In this document: piece after piece, positions 6,046 through 35,089 of the stretch
Layout of the letters: the number at the start of each line of letters is the position of its first letter
Numbering within the stretch: the first letter of the stretch is position 1
From: a virus
DNA length: 35,089 nt
Reading direction: 5' to 3' (one strand)
Virus record (IMG/VR): IMGVR_UViG_3300040801_002329
Span: 1 to 35,089 of that record
The notes under the pieces: model-generated
What the model was told of the DNA's origin: nothing
Databases searched by the model: none
Seen by the model: the letters and a program-made list of their open reading frames with translations, nothing else
Program-made: the position numbers and the translations under genes

Positions 6046-6338
6046 TTGCTCCAATTCCAGAGTTTACGGTGGATGGTGGATTGGTGGGCACCGTCGGTGT
6101 TGCCGCTGCCAGCCCCTCGCACCTGGTGCTGGTGGCGCTGGATGCGAACGGAGCGTGCCATGTTGCCGATCAGACGGCGGCCGGCGCCGTGCATCACCGA
6201 CTGGGCCCCATCACAGAGGATGCGGCCATGGATGCCGTGCGGCGCATCCTGACGGGGCGGGATAAGTCCGTCACCGGCGATGGCCTGGCGGCCGCCGCGA
6301 CCCTGCTGGCGCTGAAGGCGCGGGACGGTGCGTCATGA
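6042..6338 (+). CDS. Hypothetical early protein
   Basis: A 98-residue protein starting MIAPIPEFTVDGGLVGTVGV, with starts and stops overlapping both neighbours (ATGA at each end). The beta-rich first half (HLVLVALDANGACHVADQTA) is followed by helices (EDAAMDAVRRILTG, GLAAAATLLALKARDG). No family recognised. Translational coupling with the neighbours suggests shared early expression. Confidence 0.75.
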   Translation: MIAPIPEFTVDGGLVGTVGVAAASPSHLVLVALDANGACHVADQTAAGAVHHRLGPITEDAAMDAVRRILTGRDKSVTGDGLAAAATLLALKARDGAS

Positions 6339-6997: not shown

Positions 6998-7528
6998 ATG
7001 TCTACGCTGGGAGAAATCGAGGCCCTGGCCAAAAACTACGCCGCTGCGCGCGAGGCCCTGGGCGGCGCCGTGCAGGATCTGGAAGACGAGGTCCAGGCCA
7101 TCAAGCGCAAGCGATTGCCGCGCATCAAGCGCCTAGTGGGCAGCGCGGCCGAGGCCGAGGCCCGCCTGAAGGCCGGCATCGAAGCGGCGCCGGACCTGTT
7201 CCAGAAGCCCCGCACCCTGATCATGCATGGCGTCAAGGTCGGCTTTGCCAAGGGCAAGGGCAAGCTGGAGTTCAGCGACCCGGCCAAGGTGGTGCAGCTG
7301 ATCCGCAAGCACTTCCCGGACAAGTCCGAGGAGCTGGTCAAGGTGACCGAGGCGCCGGTGCGCGGCGCGCTCAACCAGATGAGCGTGCAGGACCTGCGCA
7401 AGATCGGCGTCACCGTGGTCGAGGCCGGCGACGAAGTCGTGATCCGACCCACCGATGGTGACATCGACAAGCTGGTCGACGCCCTGCTGAAGGACGCCAC
7501 CGACAACGCCGACAGCGCGGCCGCGTGA
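6998..7528 (+). CDS. gam: Gam-type host-nuclease inhibitor
   Basis: A 176-residue protein matching Mu Gam in length and composition. Gam binds double-strand DNA ends as a Ku-like dimer and shields phage ends from host exonucleases such as RecBCD. Visible features are the N-terminal helical part (LEDEVQAIKRKRLPRIKRL), the central 'LIMHGVKVGFAKGKGKLEF' strand pair typical of the family, and a C-terminal 'RKIGVTVVEAGDEVVIRP'. AGGAG lies 9 bases before the ATG. Expression may depend on the hairpins upstream. Confidence 0.92.
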   Translation: MSTLGEIEALAKNYAAAREALGGAVQDLEDEVQAIKRKRLPRIKRLVGSAAEAEARLKAGIEAAPDLFQKPRTLIMHGVKVGFAKGKGKLEFSDPAKVVQLIRKHFPDKSEELVKVTEAPVRGALNQMSVQDLRKIGVTVVEAGDEVVIRPTDGDIDKLVDALLKDATDNADSAAA

Positions 7529-7804: not shown

Positions 7805-8028
7805 CCAGGCTACCCCAAGAGGCCCCGCCCTCGACGCAAGACCAACGGGCAGAAGCCATTGCGGCATTCATGGCGGGCGGCGGCCAAGTCAAAAAGTGCC
7901 CGCCCGGCCATGCTGCAGGGACATCGGAGATTGAAGAAATGTTCGGGGCGGCTGCGCCGCCCCGCCCAGAAGCCCGGAGCGGCTGGCGCGCCGGGCTCAA
8001 CTTCCGCAACCAGAAGAGGTCGTCATGA
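7801..8028 (+). CDS. Small hypothetical protein, GTG start
   Basis: A 75-residue protein starting at a GTG that overlaps the previous stop. The segment AEAIAAFMAGGGQVKKCPPG resembles a motif I recall in many small phage proteins ('FLakGGkVtkcppG'). The C-terminus is basic (GWRAGLNFRNQKRSS). Function unknown. It ends in an ATGA overlap with the P-loop/lectin-like fusion gene, so the two are coupled. Confidence 0.7.
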   Translation: MTRLPQEAPPSTQDQRAEAIAAFMAGGGQVKKCPPGHAAGTSEIEEMFGAAAPPRPEARSGWRAGLNFRNQKRSS

Positions 8029-9224
8029 GACAGATCGATATCAGTGTGAGCGGCCCGGTAGGCTGTGGCAAGTCCGCCATCCTGGCCATGATCGAGCACG
8101 AGTTGCGGCGGCGGGGCTTTGCCTTCCGTTACGCCAACCCGGCCGAGGACGTGCCGGAGAAGAACATGTCTGACGTGTTGGGCGATCTGATCGCGCTCGA
8201 CCGGGGCGCCGTCTCCTTCGTTCTGCGCAGCGACGTCGGCGCTCTGGAGATGCCCGCTCTGGCGGACACGCCAATCGGGGTTGAATATGATCCGGACACC
8301 GGGTGGAGCCGCATCGGATTTGGCGACGGCCGCGCCCCTGACGAACCCGAGGTCAAGGCGCACCCCCTCTTGTCCGCCATCGCCCCAAGGCGAGTGGGCG
8401 GCCAGGACATGGTGGCGATCCCCGCATTCCACTACATGGCGCGACGGGATGGTGAACGATATCGCCTGTGGCTCTCCGCCGTACCTCGGATCGGGTTCCG
8501 CCTGCATCCGGCCTTCATGGCGCAGGGTCACCCCGTCCCGGAAATCCTGATCGGCGCCTACGAAATCTCGGAGGTCGAAGGGCAGCTCGCCAGCGTGGCC
8601 GGCCGCGCGCCGCTCACCCGCGTATCCCTCGTCGACCTGCGGGAGCGGGTCGCCGAGATGGGCGAGGGCTGGGGCGTTTGGTCTGCCCACGAGCTTGCGG
8701 CCATCCAGATGCTGGTCCTGATCGATCTGGGTCACCCGGACATCCAGTCCGAGCTGGGGCGCGGCAATGTCGCCGCCGGCGGCCCGTGCCGCACCGGAGA
8801 GAGCGATGCCGTCTGGCGCGGCCTGCATGAACTGTGGGGCAACGTCTGGCACTGGGTGGACGGCATGCGCGTTACCAAAGAGGGCCGTGTTGAGACCTGG
8901 GATCGCACCGGATATCAGGCTTGGGCCGACACGGGCGCATCGGCGCCGGACATCGTCGGGTTCCCCACGCACATCTGCGCCGCCGAGGCTCTGGACCACA
9001 TGTTCTTGCCCACAGCCGCAACCGACGATCCGGACGAGGCGATGCTGTCTGATTTCTTCGTCGGCCCCGACGAAGGTTACGCGGGCTGGCCGCTGCACGG
9101 CGGCCACTGGAACTACGGGTCGTACGCGGGCCTCTTCGGCCTGGACCTGTACAACGTCGCGTCGGACTCGTACACGAACATCGGCGGTCGCCTCGCGAAG
9201 CGTGTTCTGCCCCCTGCCAACTGA
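8025..9224 (+). CDS. P-loop segment fused to a DGR-type C-type-lectin-like protein
   Basis: A 399-residue protein. Residues 5-47 start like small phage P-loop proteins, with GPVGCGKS at 10-17, but no Walker B or rest of the fold follows. From M48 a different module begins; a GGAG 6 bases before this internal ATG (8166) suggests separate translation may occur. The remainder has the layout of formylglycine-enzyme/C-type-lectin-like phage proteins: 'MVAIPAFHY', 'GFRLHPAFMAQG', 'WSAHELAAIQML', 'LHELWGNVWHWVDGM', and a C-terminal 'GGHWNYGSYAGLFGLDLYN' ending 'TNIGGRLAKRV'. This is the fold diversified by DGRs, and the last segment has the codon pattern of a variable repeat. The tail fibre at the right edge shares the module. 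Role unknown; binding of a variable ligand is inferred. No signal peptide or membrane segment seen. Confidence 0.8.
   Translation: MRQIDISVSGPVGCGKSAILAMIEHELRRRGFAFRYANPAEDVPEKNMSDVLGDLIALDRGAVSFVLRSDVGALEMPALADTPIGVEYDPDTGWSRIGFGDGRAPDEPEVKAHPLLSAIAPRRVGGQDMVAIPAFHYMARRDGERYRLWLSAVPRIGFRLHPAFMAQGHPVPEILIGAYEISEVEGQLASVAGRAPLTRVSLVDLRERVAEMGEGWGVWSAHELAAIQMLVLIDLGHPDIQSELGRGNVAAGGPCRTGESDAVWRGLHELWGNVWHWVDGMRVTKEGRVETWDRTGYQAWADTGASAPDIVGFPTHICAAEALDHMFLPTAATDDPDEAMLSDFFVGPDEGYAGWPLHGGHWNYGSYAGLFGLDLYNVASDSYTNIGGRLAKRVLPPAN
9105..9200 (+). repeat. Putative DGR variable repeat (VR)
   Basis: Codons for residues 361-392. Ten NAC codons (CAC, AAC, TAC, TAC, GAC, TAC, AAC, GAC, TAC, AAC) are scattered among framework codons with no adenine until ACG and ATC near the end. 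This is what results when AAC codons of a template repeat are changed at adenines. The end (GGCGGTCGCCTCGCG) is GC-rich, like an initiation-of-mutagenic-homology region. The exact limits need the template repeat, which I do not find in this window. Confidence 0.75.
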
Positions 9225-9232
9225 GTTCTGAT

Positions 9233-9254
9233 GGTGGCGCCGAGAGGCGCCACC
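9233..9254 (+). repeat. GAGA-tetraloop hairpin after the VR
   Basis: GGTGGCGCC, loop GAGA, GGCGCCACC: a perfect 9-bp inverted repeat eight bases after the stop codon of the lectin-like gene. In the Bordetella phage DGR a hairpin/cruciform with a short GC stem and a four-base GRNA loop directly follows the variable repeat and promotes retrohoming. GAGA fits GRNA. No T-run follows, so a terminator is unlikely. Confidence 0.75.
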
Positions 9255-9275: not shown

Positions 9276-9734
9276 ATGTCTGACCGATCCCAGCGAATGA
9301 AGGCGATCCACGCCGGGGCGCGCGAACTCGGCCTGGACGACGACGCGCGGCGGGCGCTCATGGAACGCATCACCGGCTGCAGGTCGGCCAAGGACATGAC
9401 CGACGCGCAAATGGGCGCCGTCCTTGAGGAGTATTCCCGCCTGCGCGGGGGCGCCCGGCGCGCGGGCGAGGGGCGGCGCCAGTGGCGACCAGCGACCAAC
9501 CCGCTGGCCCGCAAGGTCCACGCTCAGTGGGCCGAATTGTGCCGCCTGGGGGTGGTGAATGTCACCGGCGCCAGCGCCCGGCGCCAGGCGCTGCGCAAGT
9601 GGTGTGCGCGGCAGCTGCAGCCGGGTGACGACGTGTTGGTGGATCCCGACCTACTCGAGGACGGCCAGCTGCGCGTGCTGGTCGAAAGCCTCAAGAAGTG
9701 GCTGACGCGACTGCGCGGCGGGGAGGGGCCGTGA
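9276..9734 (+). CDS. gemA: GemA-type regulatory protein (Mu gp16 family)
   Basis: A 152-residue protein of the GemA/DUF1018 family. The family's N-terminal pattern is visible: MKAIHAGARELGLDDDARRA, LMERITGCRSAKDMTDAQMG. In Mu, GemA alters host gene expression and DNA supercoiling. I chose the ATG at 9276 because GGGAGGAAG lies 6 bases upstream; the frame extends left to 9231, across the hairpin. Its C-terminal domain has the expected 'ALRKWCARQL' helix. It lies next to mor, as in Mu (gemA-mor). Confidence 0.85.
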   Translation: MSDRSQRMKAIHAGARELGLDDDARRALMERITGCRSAKDMTDAQMGAVLEEYSRLRGGARRAGEGRRQWRPATNPLARKVHAQWAELCRLGVVNVTGASARRQALRKWCARQLQPGDDVLVDPDLLEDGQLRVLVESLKKWLTRLRGGEGP

Positions 9735-10123
9735 GCGAGCAAACCCCCCCGATCCTGAGCAAGCAGCTGGACGAGATCGCGGAAGTGGTCGGCGCAGCGG
9801 CAGCGATCCGCCTGGCCGAGAGCCCGTACGGCGGTCAGGAGGGGTGCTGTGTGCCGCACACGCCGCGACCGGATCACCCGTGGGCGGACATCCTGGGCAT
9901 GGATGCGTTCCAGCGCCTGTGCCGCGCCATGGGTGGTAGCCGGATCACCATCCCCCGAAACGCTTTGGCGCGGAGCGTCAAGGCGCGCATGGGCGCTTTG
10001 AAAGCGCAAGGCCTGTCGCACCGCGCCATCGCCCGGCAGCTGACCTGCACGGAGCGCTATGTGCGCATGGTGATGAATGCTGGGTCGGACCCGCGACAGG
10101 GTCAGCTGTTCGGGGAGGATTGA
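9731..10123 (+). CDS. mor: Mor-type transcription activator
   Basis: A 130-residue protein with a GTG start overlapping the gemA stop and GGGAGGGGCC upstream. The C-terminal half has the Mor/C family signature: GGSRITIPRNALARSVKARM (residues 68-87), then a helix-turn-helix at about 93-116 (AQGLSHRAIARQLTCTERYV). In Mu, Mor turns on the middle promoter and the related C turns on late promoters. Only one such protein is seen here, so it may act directly on late promoters. It is the last gene of the early operon. Confidence 0.88.
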   Translation: MSEQTPPILSKQLDEIAEVVGAAAAIRLAESPYGGQEGCCVPHTPRPDHPWADILGMDAFQRLCRAMGGSRITIPRNALARSVKARMGALKAQGLSHRAIARQLTCTERYVRMVMNAGSDPRQGQLFGED

Positions 10124-10214: not shown

Positions 10215-10248
10215 TCCCCTCAGACATGGATTTCTGAGGGGACTTTTT
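10215..10248 (+). terminator. Terminator-like hairpin that also covers the endolysin ribosome binding site
   Basis: TCCCCTCAGA, an 8-base loop, TCTGAGGGGA, then CTTTTT. The perfect 10-bp GC-rich stem with a T-run is a good intrinsic terminator for the early operon. It ends right at the ATG (10249) of the endolysin, and the only ribosome binding site (GAGGGG) lies within the 3' arm. It could thus both stop early transcripts and hinder endolysin translation. Confidence 0.7.
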
Positions 10249-33088: not shown

Positions 33089-35089
33089 ATGGGAGCCTTG
33101 ATGAATGAAATCTCAGCCATGCTGGCCGCCCAGGATGCCCTTCGGCAGCGGGTGGACTTGCTGTTGGCCGCCTACGGCGAGGGGTCGCTGGACCCGGCCG
33201 AGATCCAGCGACAGATCCAGGAGGCCACCCAGGACGCCATCGACGCGGTGTTGGCGCAACTGGACGGGCTGGACGTCTCCGAGCTGGCATTGCGCGCCGA
33301 GCTGCAGCGCAAACTGCTTGGCCTGCAGAACGCCTACGGCCCTGAAAAGTACTTTTTCGAGTTCTTTAATGCGCTGTTTACGACCGCCGACACCCTGACC
33401 GTGACCGGCGTGTCCACGGTGTCAGGTGACGACAGCGTGGACATCTCCAGCACGTCCGACCTGCAGGTCGGGCGCGAATATGCCATCGACGGCCCTGCCT
33501 CAACGGTGATCGTCACCGTGGCCGAGATCTTCAGCGCCACCCGCTTCCGGGCGTCGGCGCCGGTGGACACCACCTTGACCGACGCCACCTTGCGCCGCAC
33601 CAACTGGACCATCGACGGCGACGAGGCCACGGCGGTTGCCGGGCAGGTATATTATTCGCGCCTGCTGAACCTGGGTGGCGACGACATCGACAAGGCCATC
33701 GTCATCCGGCGCCAGGACAACGCGGCCGACGTGCGCCTGTACTTCAAGGACGACACGCACGCAACCTGGACCGAGGCCCCCTGGGGCTGGAAGCGCGACA
33801 GCGACGTGGGCCTGACGGACCTGGGCCTGATCTCCGACGGCTCGACCGACACCGGCCTGATCGACGTCGAGTATCGGCTGCGGGCGCGCGGGACGTTCGA
33901 GCTCAAGATTGTGGTCGAGGGTGAGGGCGTGACGATCAAGCATATCGTCGGCGTCGACCAGGAAACCCTGCTGGGCGGCCTGCATCACGCCCCCGAGACC
34001 CCGGTCAACAGCGCCCCCGCTGACGCGGCCGTCGACGTGATCGAGACCCCAACCCTGACGGTGGAGGCATACAGCTCGGCGGTCGAGAGCCCGATGGCGG
34101 GCAGCCAGTGGCAGGTGTCCACCGACGCGGCCGACTGGTCCGCGCCCGTGTACGACAGCGACGAGGAGGCAGCCGGCCTGTCGCACGAGATGCCGCCGGC
34201 GGTGCTGCTGGAGGGCACGACCTATCACTGGCGCGCGCGGCTGAAGGACACCGAGGGGGCCTGGTCGGATTGGTCGACCCCGACCGAGTTTGCCACGGCC
34301 GCCGCCTTCGAGTACGTCGTGACGCCCCAGATCACCTCGCCCACCAACGGCGCCGTCGACATCCCGGAACAGCCGACGCTGTTCTCCAGCGCCTTCGCGG
34401 TGCATGACGGGTCCGACACGCATGAGGCCAGCCGCTGGCAGATCCGTTCGGCCGCCGGCAGCTACACCACACCCGACTGGGACAGCGGCGAAGACGCGGT
34501 CAACCTGGAGGAGATCCAGGTGCCCGCCGGCATTCTGGCCGACGGCACCCAGACCTATTATGCCCGCGTCCAACACAAGGGCACGGCGCTTGGCTGGTCC
34601 GAGTGGTCGGCGGAGATCAGCTTCACGACCAAGGATCTGTTCGCCAACATCGTCGGCATCGCCCTGGTGACCTCCGGCGGTGGCGGCGGGACCTGGGCGC
34701 GGGTCGATGAGGACGGCAACAACAAGACGACCGACGCATCGTTCTTCAACGGCCACCCGGTGTACGGCGGCATCACCGACGCGGTGATCGACAGCCAGGA
34801 CATGGTGAAGATCCCGAAGTTCTATTACCGCGTGGCCGCCGCGCCAACGGGCAGCGACCGCGCCGGCAAGAAGTGCTGGTGGATCAGCGACCAGCCGGCC
34901 GACGGCTTCGTGCTGCACCCGGCCTTCATGGATGGCGGCGTCGAGATCCCGTATTTCTACGTCGGCAAATATCAGGGGTCGAACGACAGCGGCACCAAGC
35001 TGGGGTCGGTGTCCGGCGTGGCGCCGCTGGTCAGCATCGACTTCCCGACCATGCAGTCCCGCGCTTCGGCGCGCAACGCCGGCGGCGTG
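33089..35089 (+). CDS. Tail fibre with FN3-like repeats and start of a DGR-type ligand domain (cut by window edge)
   Basis: Open for 667 codons to the window end with no stop; GGAG lies upstream of the ATG. Order: helical attachment region (1-90), a beta-rich shaft (about 95-300), two fibronectin-III-like repeats (about 300-409 and 410-517; TYHWRARLKDTEGAWSDWST and YYARVQHKGTALGWSEWS). From about 518 a C-type-lectin-like module starts: MVKIPKFYY, ISDQPADGFVLHPAFMDGG and KYQGS...KLGSVSGVAPL. The same module is in the gene at 8025. Its variable C-terminal end should lie beyond the window. It should be the receptor-binding protein. Confidence 0.88.
   Translation, partial: MGALMNEISAMLAAQDALRQRVDLLLAAYGEGSLDPAEIQRQIQEATQDAIDAVLAQLDGLDVSELALRAELQRKLLGLQNAYGPEKYFFEFFNALFTTADTLTVTGVSTVSGDDSVDISSTSDLQVGREYAIDGPASTVIVTVAEIFSATRFRASAPVDTTLTDATLRRTNWTIDGDEATAVAGQVYYSRLLNLGGDDIDKAIVIRRQDNAADVRLYFKDDTHATWTEAPWGWKRDSDVGLTDLGLISDGSTDTGLIDVEYRLRARGTFELKIVVEGEGVTIKHIVGVDQETLLGGLHHAPETPVNSAPADAAVDVIETPTLTVEAYSSAVESPMAGSQWQVSTDAADWSAPVYDSDEEAAGLSHEMPPAVLLEGTTYHWRARLKDTEGAWSDWSTPTEFATAAAFEYVVTPQITSPTNGAVDIPEQPTLFSSAFAVHDGSDTHEASRWQIRSAAGSYTTPDWDSGEDAVNLEEIQVPAGILADGTQTYYARVQHKGTALGWSEWSAEISFTTKDLFANIVGIALVTSGGGGGTWARVDEDGNNKTTDASFFNGHPVYGGITDAVIDSQDMVKIPKFYYRVAAAPTGSDRAGKKCWWISDQPADGFVLHPAFMDGGVEIPYFYVGKYQGSNDSGTKLGSVSGVAPLVSIDFPTMQSRASARNAGGV

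Follow-up and report, generated by a model that had tools for sequence, protein, structure and literature searches.

The IMG/VR virus record IMGVR_UViG_3300040801_002329 raises the question of whether one of its early genes ends in the variable repeat (VR) of a diversity-generating retroelement (DGR) and, if so, what such a target does in an early operon. The record, whose full 35,089 bp (positions 1 to 35,089) are called the window here, encodes a Mu-type transposase (PF09299 and rve), MuB, Gam, GemA, a Mor-like protein and Mu Gp27. The gene and the repeat in question are the following:

8025 to 9224, plus strand: open reading frame of 399 amino acids, the proposed early-region DGR target gene, with a short Walker-A N-terminal domain and a C-type-lectin domain ending in the VR
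9099 to 9199, plus strand: variable repeat VR2, 101 nt, 86% identical to the template repeat (TR) of sister phages, with mismatches enriched at TR adenines

The repeat is very probably the VR of a second, remote target of a phage DGR. The initial annotation had pointed to ten NAC codons (N, any base) at the end of the gene, which encode only His, Asn, Tyr and Asp within a framework lacking adenine until near its end. All ten are present, at 9105, 9111, 9114, 9123, 9144, 9150, 9153, 9165, 9171 and 9177; in order, the residues are H, N, Y, Y, D, Y, N, D, Y and N, and the framework codons are free of adenine until ACG (9174), ATC (9180) and AAG (9198). The GGC codon at 9138 aligns with an AAC codon of the sister TR, and the invariant 3' end of VR2, at about 9183-9199, is presumed to be the initiation of mutagenic homing (IMH) site. 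By itself, the NAC richness is weak, though suggestive, evidence of a DGR, and the comparative data carry the case; at least ten NAC codons occur in 13 of 6056 33-codon segments from the phage's other genes. Since the density of these codons is weak evidence and the window holds neither a second copy of the repeat nor a match to RVT_1, the question was decided with relatives.

Scans of IMG/VR and GTDB with the single window protein sequence returned no matches, and an alignment of the window protein with a sister protein was needed as the query. One sister phage, L004 (on the 37,187-bp contig G001), was retrieved by a transposase search, and the other, L011 (IMG/VR name 643348571; on the 38,351-bp contig G005), by the two-sequence alignment. 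In each of them, a GemA-like gene is preceded by the same early gene (L004:7475-8659 and L011:8664-9845; 55-57% amino-acid identity to the window protein), and a reverse transcriptase (RT) gene lies at the far, right end. There, in L004, a tail-fibre gene with VR1 is followed by an open reading frame of 94 amino acids, Avd (PF22296), the TR and the RT, an order that is repeated in a third fragment, L024. Avd was identified in one sister (L004), TR and RT in both. In each sister, a single TR is accompanied by a VR in the tail fibre and a second VR in the early gene, about 27 kb from the cassette. The AAC-bearing near-copy beside an RT gene that the initial annotation had suggested searching for is thus found in the relatives, next to Avd and RT in L004 and next to RT in L011. 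The 94-amino-acid open reading frame, which has no Pfam match, is a conserved feature of two related DGR cassettes, where it separates the tail fibre from avd (L009:1699-1983 and L024:1882-2166, both on the minus strand).

The TR core used for comparison comprises 101 nt, with 25 adenine and 76 non-adenine positions. The early VR of L004 differs from its TR at 11/25 adenines and 1/76 other positions, and that of L011 at 8/25 and 1/76; the window VR, compared with the sister TR rather than its own, differs at 9/25 and 5/76. The explanation originally given for the NAC pattern, adenine mutagenesis of AAC codons in a template, is thereby borne out in the sisters, where VR/TR differences concentrate at TR adenines. 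The two sisters are 95.2% identical over 31 kb and their TRs are identical, and a comparison of one early VR with the other gives differences at 15/25 TR-adenine positions versus 2/76 non-adenine positions (p=1.2e-9). Outside the VR, 51 of the 1081 positions of the early gene differ. The ratio of nonsynonymous to synonymous differences (pN/pS) between the sisters is 0.10 for the N-terminal 75 codons and 0.15 for the lectin domain before the VR; in the VR region, pS is 0 and pN is 0.18. To judge from these sequences, recent mutagenic homing has left its signature in a gene that appears to be otherwise under purifying selection. The early VR has changed recently and adenine-specifically despite identical TRs, as expected of an active DGR. 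Equal variation of the framework, which would have spoken against a DGR, is not seen in the relatives, and the window phage's own TR and RT are not in the record. They are missing from it because it stops inside a tail-fibre gene:

33089 to 35089, plus strand: truncated tail-fibre gene of 667+ codons with an open 3' end, homologous to the tail fibre of the sister phages; cut off by the record end within the same lectin domain, which is similar to the early protein

The primary VR, Avd, TR and RT of the window phage are expected past 35,089, in or after this gene.

The sequence following VR2 contains a further element typical of DGR targets:

9233 to 9254, plus strand: post-VR hairpin GGTGGCGCC-GAGA-GGCGCCACC with a 9-bp stem and a 5'GRNA loop (R, purine), 33 bp past the VR, recognized from the sequence and by a shuffle test

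Hairpins at phage DGR targets were described as GC-rich, with a stem of 7-10 bp, a 5'GRNA loop and a distance of 4-34 bp from the VR (Guo et al. 2011, PMC3240598), and the window hairpin fits each of these properties. It is far more stable than shuffled sequences (z -6.3, 0/200 shuffles). A perfect 9-bp stem follows all five VRs, the early VR of the window and the early and tail VRs of the sisters, at a common offset within one base, and the loops read GAGA, GGCA, GGCA, GGGA and GAGA. Between early and tail sites, the stem sequence changes while its pairing is retained, and the sequence 3' of the sister TR lacks such a hairpin. A role of the 9233-9254 hairpin as a terminator was rejected, as no T-run follows it.

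The early protein was also claimed to end like a DGR C-type lectin, and the structural model agrees:

8265 to 9221, plus strand: domain of the C-type lectin/formylglycine-generating enzyme (CLec/FGE) type, a paralogue of the domain at the tip of this phage's tail fibre, based on AlphaFold2, Foldseek and sequence identity
8052 to 8075, plus strand: Walker A motif GPVGCGKS (amino acids 10-17) in an N-terminal domain of about 75 amino acids, recognized by alignment

An AlphaFold2 model built from a 48-sequence alignment reached a predicted local distance difference test (pLDDT) score of 87 overall and mostly >90 across amino acids 81-399; an earlier model from a seven-sequence alignment (pLDDT 36) was discarded. 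The top Foldseek matches of the modelled protein are TaqVP, Mtd and TvpA, and TaqVP (5VF4) is the best PDB match both by profile (2.6e-34) and by structure. The lectin domain is thus predicted with high confidence to have the DGR C-type-lectin fold. In L011, the early lectin domain and the tail-fibre domain are 43% identical, and most viral proteins of similar structure are tail collar fibres. Both sisters and two small stand-alone proteins (L013 and L014) retain the Walker A motif. The N-terminal domain was modelled as beta-alpha-alpha-beta at low confidence and its matches to Pfam AAA families fall below the cut-off, so that 'P-loop-like' is all that can be said of it. Used alone as the query, this domain found no phage in the annotated collection. 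The stand-alone proteins resembling this N-terminus (L013:9995-10405 and L014:5959-6213; 136 and 84 amino acids) come from a Sulfuriferula metagenome-assembled genome and from Methylobacterium variabile. A search of 385 genomes from the class of the Methylobacterium genome G007 gave no match, but was uninformative, as it had no positive control.

The position of the gene corresponds to the early region of Mu: it lies on the same strand as its neighbours, flanked by gam and gemA as stated at the outset, with mor following.

6998 to 7528, plus strand: Gam-like nuclease inhibitor, early gene upstream (PF07352, 1.5e-8)
9276 to 9734, plus strand: GemA, early gene immediately downstream (PF06252, 7.9e-20)
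9734 to 10123, plus strand: Mor-like activator, last gene before the terminator-like site (PF08765, 1.4e-4, just below the curated cut-off)
10215 to 10242, plus strand: terminator-like hairpin with a T-run, presumed end of the early operon, from a consensus scan that by itself is no evidence of function

A DGR target in an early operon had been considered unusual. The location is indeed unusual, but it is not unique, as it recurs in other Mu-like phages. A scan with the early and tail lectins yielded 80 viral loci, mostly tail fibres of about 850 amino acids, and among other Mu-like phages, free-standing lectin genes were found upstream of gemA in L030, L034, L060, L069, L072, L080 and their relatives. 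An RT is present in 10/12 tested contigs with free lectins; the two without RT are fragments of about 11 kb. Compared with its cognate TR, the VR of L034 differs at 11/23 adenines versus 2/73 other positions, that of L029 at 9/20 versus 0/76, and the two VRs of L060 at 10/23 and 14/23 versus 0/73 each, while enrichment is weaker in L030 (7/21 versus 7/75). L038, where the match was the VR itself and the lectin lies beside the RT, and L031 and L033, which have no clean TR, were left out of this support. The sister comparison extends to a second lineage of early genes, in which seven closely related genes vary at 19/20 TR-adenine positions and at 1/60 others; diversity is 0.64 at adenines, 0.005 at non-adenines and 0.031 in the upstream sequence, where pN/pS is 0.04-0.19. 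In a tree of the VR-free part of the lectin domain, which was built by a quick method and has some long branches, the free lectins occupy three places, all with VR changes enriched at adenines and one nested among the tail fibres of their own phages; early copies thus seem to have arisen on more than one occasion. Chimeric assembly as the source of the early-gene arrangement was rejected, since the arrangement was found in independent contigs.

Some of the free-lectin phages show further arrangements. L060:1284-3562 contains two tandem early lectin genes whose VRs are both adenine-specific relative to the same TR, which together with the tail fibre (L061) makes three DGR targets. Tandem RT matches within about 2 kb were found in two records of such phages (G399:C1:73103-73732 and 74818-75426; G400:C1:72433-73011 and 73569-74177). 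The free-standing lectin target at L038:4314-5378 is located beside an RT near 6251, has no gemA nearby and is compact, unlike the early-operon arrangements.

In the sisters, the sequences show a single TR and a single RT (Avd was identified in one of them) at the right-hand genome end and two VRs, in the tail-fibre tip beside the cassette and in the early gene about 27 kb upstream; a GRNA-loop hairpin follows each VR, and each departs from the TR nearly exclusively at its adenines. By analogy with BPP-1, the RT would copy TR RNA into complementary DNA with random bases at adenines, and this DNA would replace both VRs through hairpin-dependent mutagenic homing. The window phage would carry the same cassette just beyond its truncated right end. 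The early lectin domain was probably copied from a tail-fibre tip and, in this lineage, fused to the small Walker-A domain.

Several observations weigh against these proposals. Within the 35,089-bp record, the search for a TR-like copy matched the VR itself and nothing else, and no RVT_1 match was found. The window VR and the sister TR show five non-adenine mismatches, which presumably are differences of the window phage's own TR. Post-VR GRNA hairpins were not found in the other lineages L034, L029 and L057. The match to phrog_5302 is annotated as 'tail protein', as expected of a shared domain, which leaves room for a role in the virion. Finally, early expression, cytoplasmic location and ligand of the early protein are a leading guess drawn from gene position and sequence. 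That the gene is no DGR target at all, and that the pattern reflects biased codons and a C-terminus rich in Tyr, Asn and Asp in an FGE-like protein, is scarcely credible: the window has no TR or RT and its NAC density is merely a ~0.2% event within this genome, but all sister-phage data and the type-B population speak against it, and for the sisters this explanation is already refuted. It is improbable that the early copy is a passive duplicate on which the DGR acts merely because it has kept its VR and hairpin, with a product devoid of any role. Although the VR and its downstream sequence suffice for DGR homing according to PMC3240598, pN/pS is 0.04-0.19 outside the VR within two lineages and the gene occurs repeatedly at the same place, so that this explanation is already disfavoured.

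What the protein does is a more balanced matter. Tentatively, the preferred reading is that of a cytoplasmic, early-expressed, diversified binder of a variable host-cell component that acts in takeover or counter-defence; it is based on the position from gam to the Mor-like gene with its terminator-like site, the lost fibre shaft, the fused Walker-A domain and the selection pattern. On a somewhat more speculative note, Mu-like phages may repeatedly have copied the hypervariable tail-fibre tip into the early operon by gemA, where the same DGR would turn it into a diversified intracellular binder directed at variable host factors such as defence components during the first minutes of infection. 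An unlikely alternative is that the product of the early gene is a further virion or receptor-binding component, namely a free tail-tip domain whose gene happens to be located upstream of gemA. The paralogy of the lectin domain to the phage's own tail-fibre tip, the predominance of tail collar fibres among its viral structural neighbours and the paired virion-like DGR targets of Faecalibacterium phages agree with a virion component, but gam and gemA flank the gene, the Mor-like gene and the terminator-like site follow downstream, the fibre shaft is missing and replaced by the Walker-A domain in this lineage, and separate branches of the lectin tree show the same location. Rather less likely still is an action at the cell surface or against incoming phages, such as receptor masking or superinfection exclusion. 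A free receptor-binding domain could block the same receptors, and its repeated derivation from tail fibres would fit; however, no export signal is evident at the N-termini, which were inspected by eye only, and a P-loop domain would be unusual in an exported protein.

The proposed system shares its basic features with the DGR of the Bordetella phage BPP-1 (mtd, avd, TR, RT), namely adenine-specific TR-to-VR change, a C-terminal VR in a CLec/FGE-fold protein, Avd, RT and a post-VR hairpin with a GRNA loop. BPP-1, however, has a single target, a tail tropism protein beside the cassette, whereas here an additional target is located in the early operon, at a distance of about 27 kb. TaqVP, the DGR variable protein of a Thermus aquaticus prophage (5VF4), has the same CLec/FGE fold, but is a single domain, to which the window protein adds the Walker-A domain. 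Hankyphage and Mushu are also Mu-like transposable phages with a DGR; in the accessible parts of their descriptions, however, no early-region target is reported (PMC12135933, PMC5883640). The Mu-like Chromohalobacter phage YPCBV-1 has a G+C content of 67% and encodes Gam, GemA, a Mor-family protein and a SUMF1/EgtB-like protein beside Avd and RT, but its description notes only the SUMF1-like gene at the right end and reads it as metabolic (PMC9769972). This gene, ORF53, reported as an auxiliary metabolic gene and known here from the published description, lies beside Avd (ORF54) and RT (ORF55) and is more likely a DGR target than a metabolic gene. One DGR with two VRs is found in the Faecalibacterium phages Lagaffe_CP, Lelie and CP11 (PMC11792537) and in the tentaclin phages (PMC10743442), and both VRs are diversified in Lagaffe_CP and CP11 (PMC11792537). 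In the text available for both groups, however, the targets are described as receptor-binding or possibly structural, and none as an early-operon gene (PMC11792537, PMC10743442). According to a survey of 36,611 DGR targets, viral targets are mainly tail proteins. DGRs in Mu-like phages and two-target phage DGRs are thus already known, whereas the early-operon target appears to be new, as no description of one was found in the openly accessible papers that were searched.

Phage DGRs have so far been understood as tail-diversification devices. An early target that is conserved and actively diversified in several lineages, with purifying selection outside the VR, suggests that phages also gain from random variation in an early, probably intracellular protein. 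If this is true, one RT would diversify both entry and takeover. Such proteins would then be a natural, library-like source of intracellular binders, and the binding partner of the variable early protein becomes a testable question.
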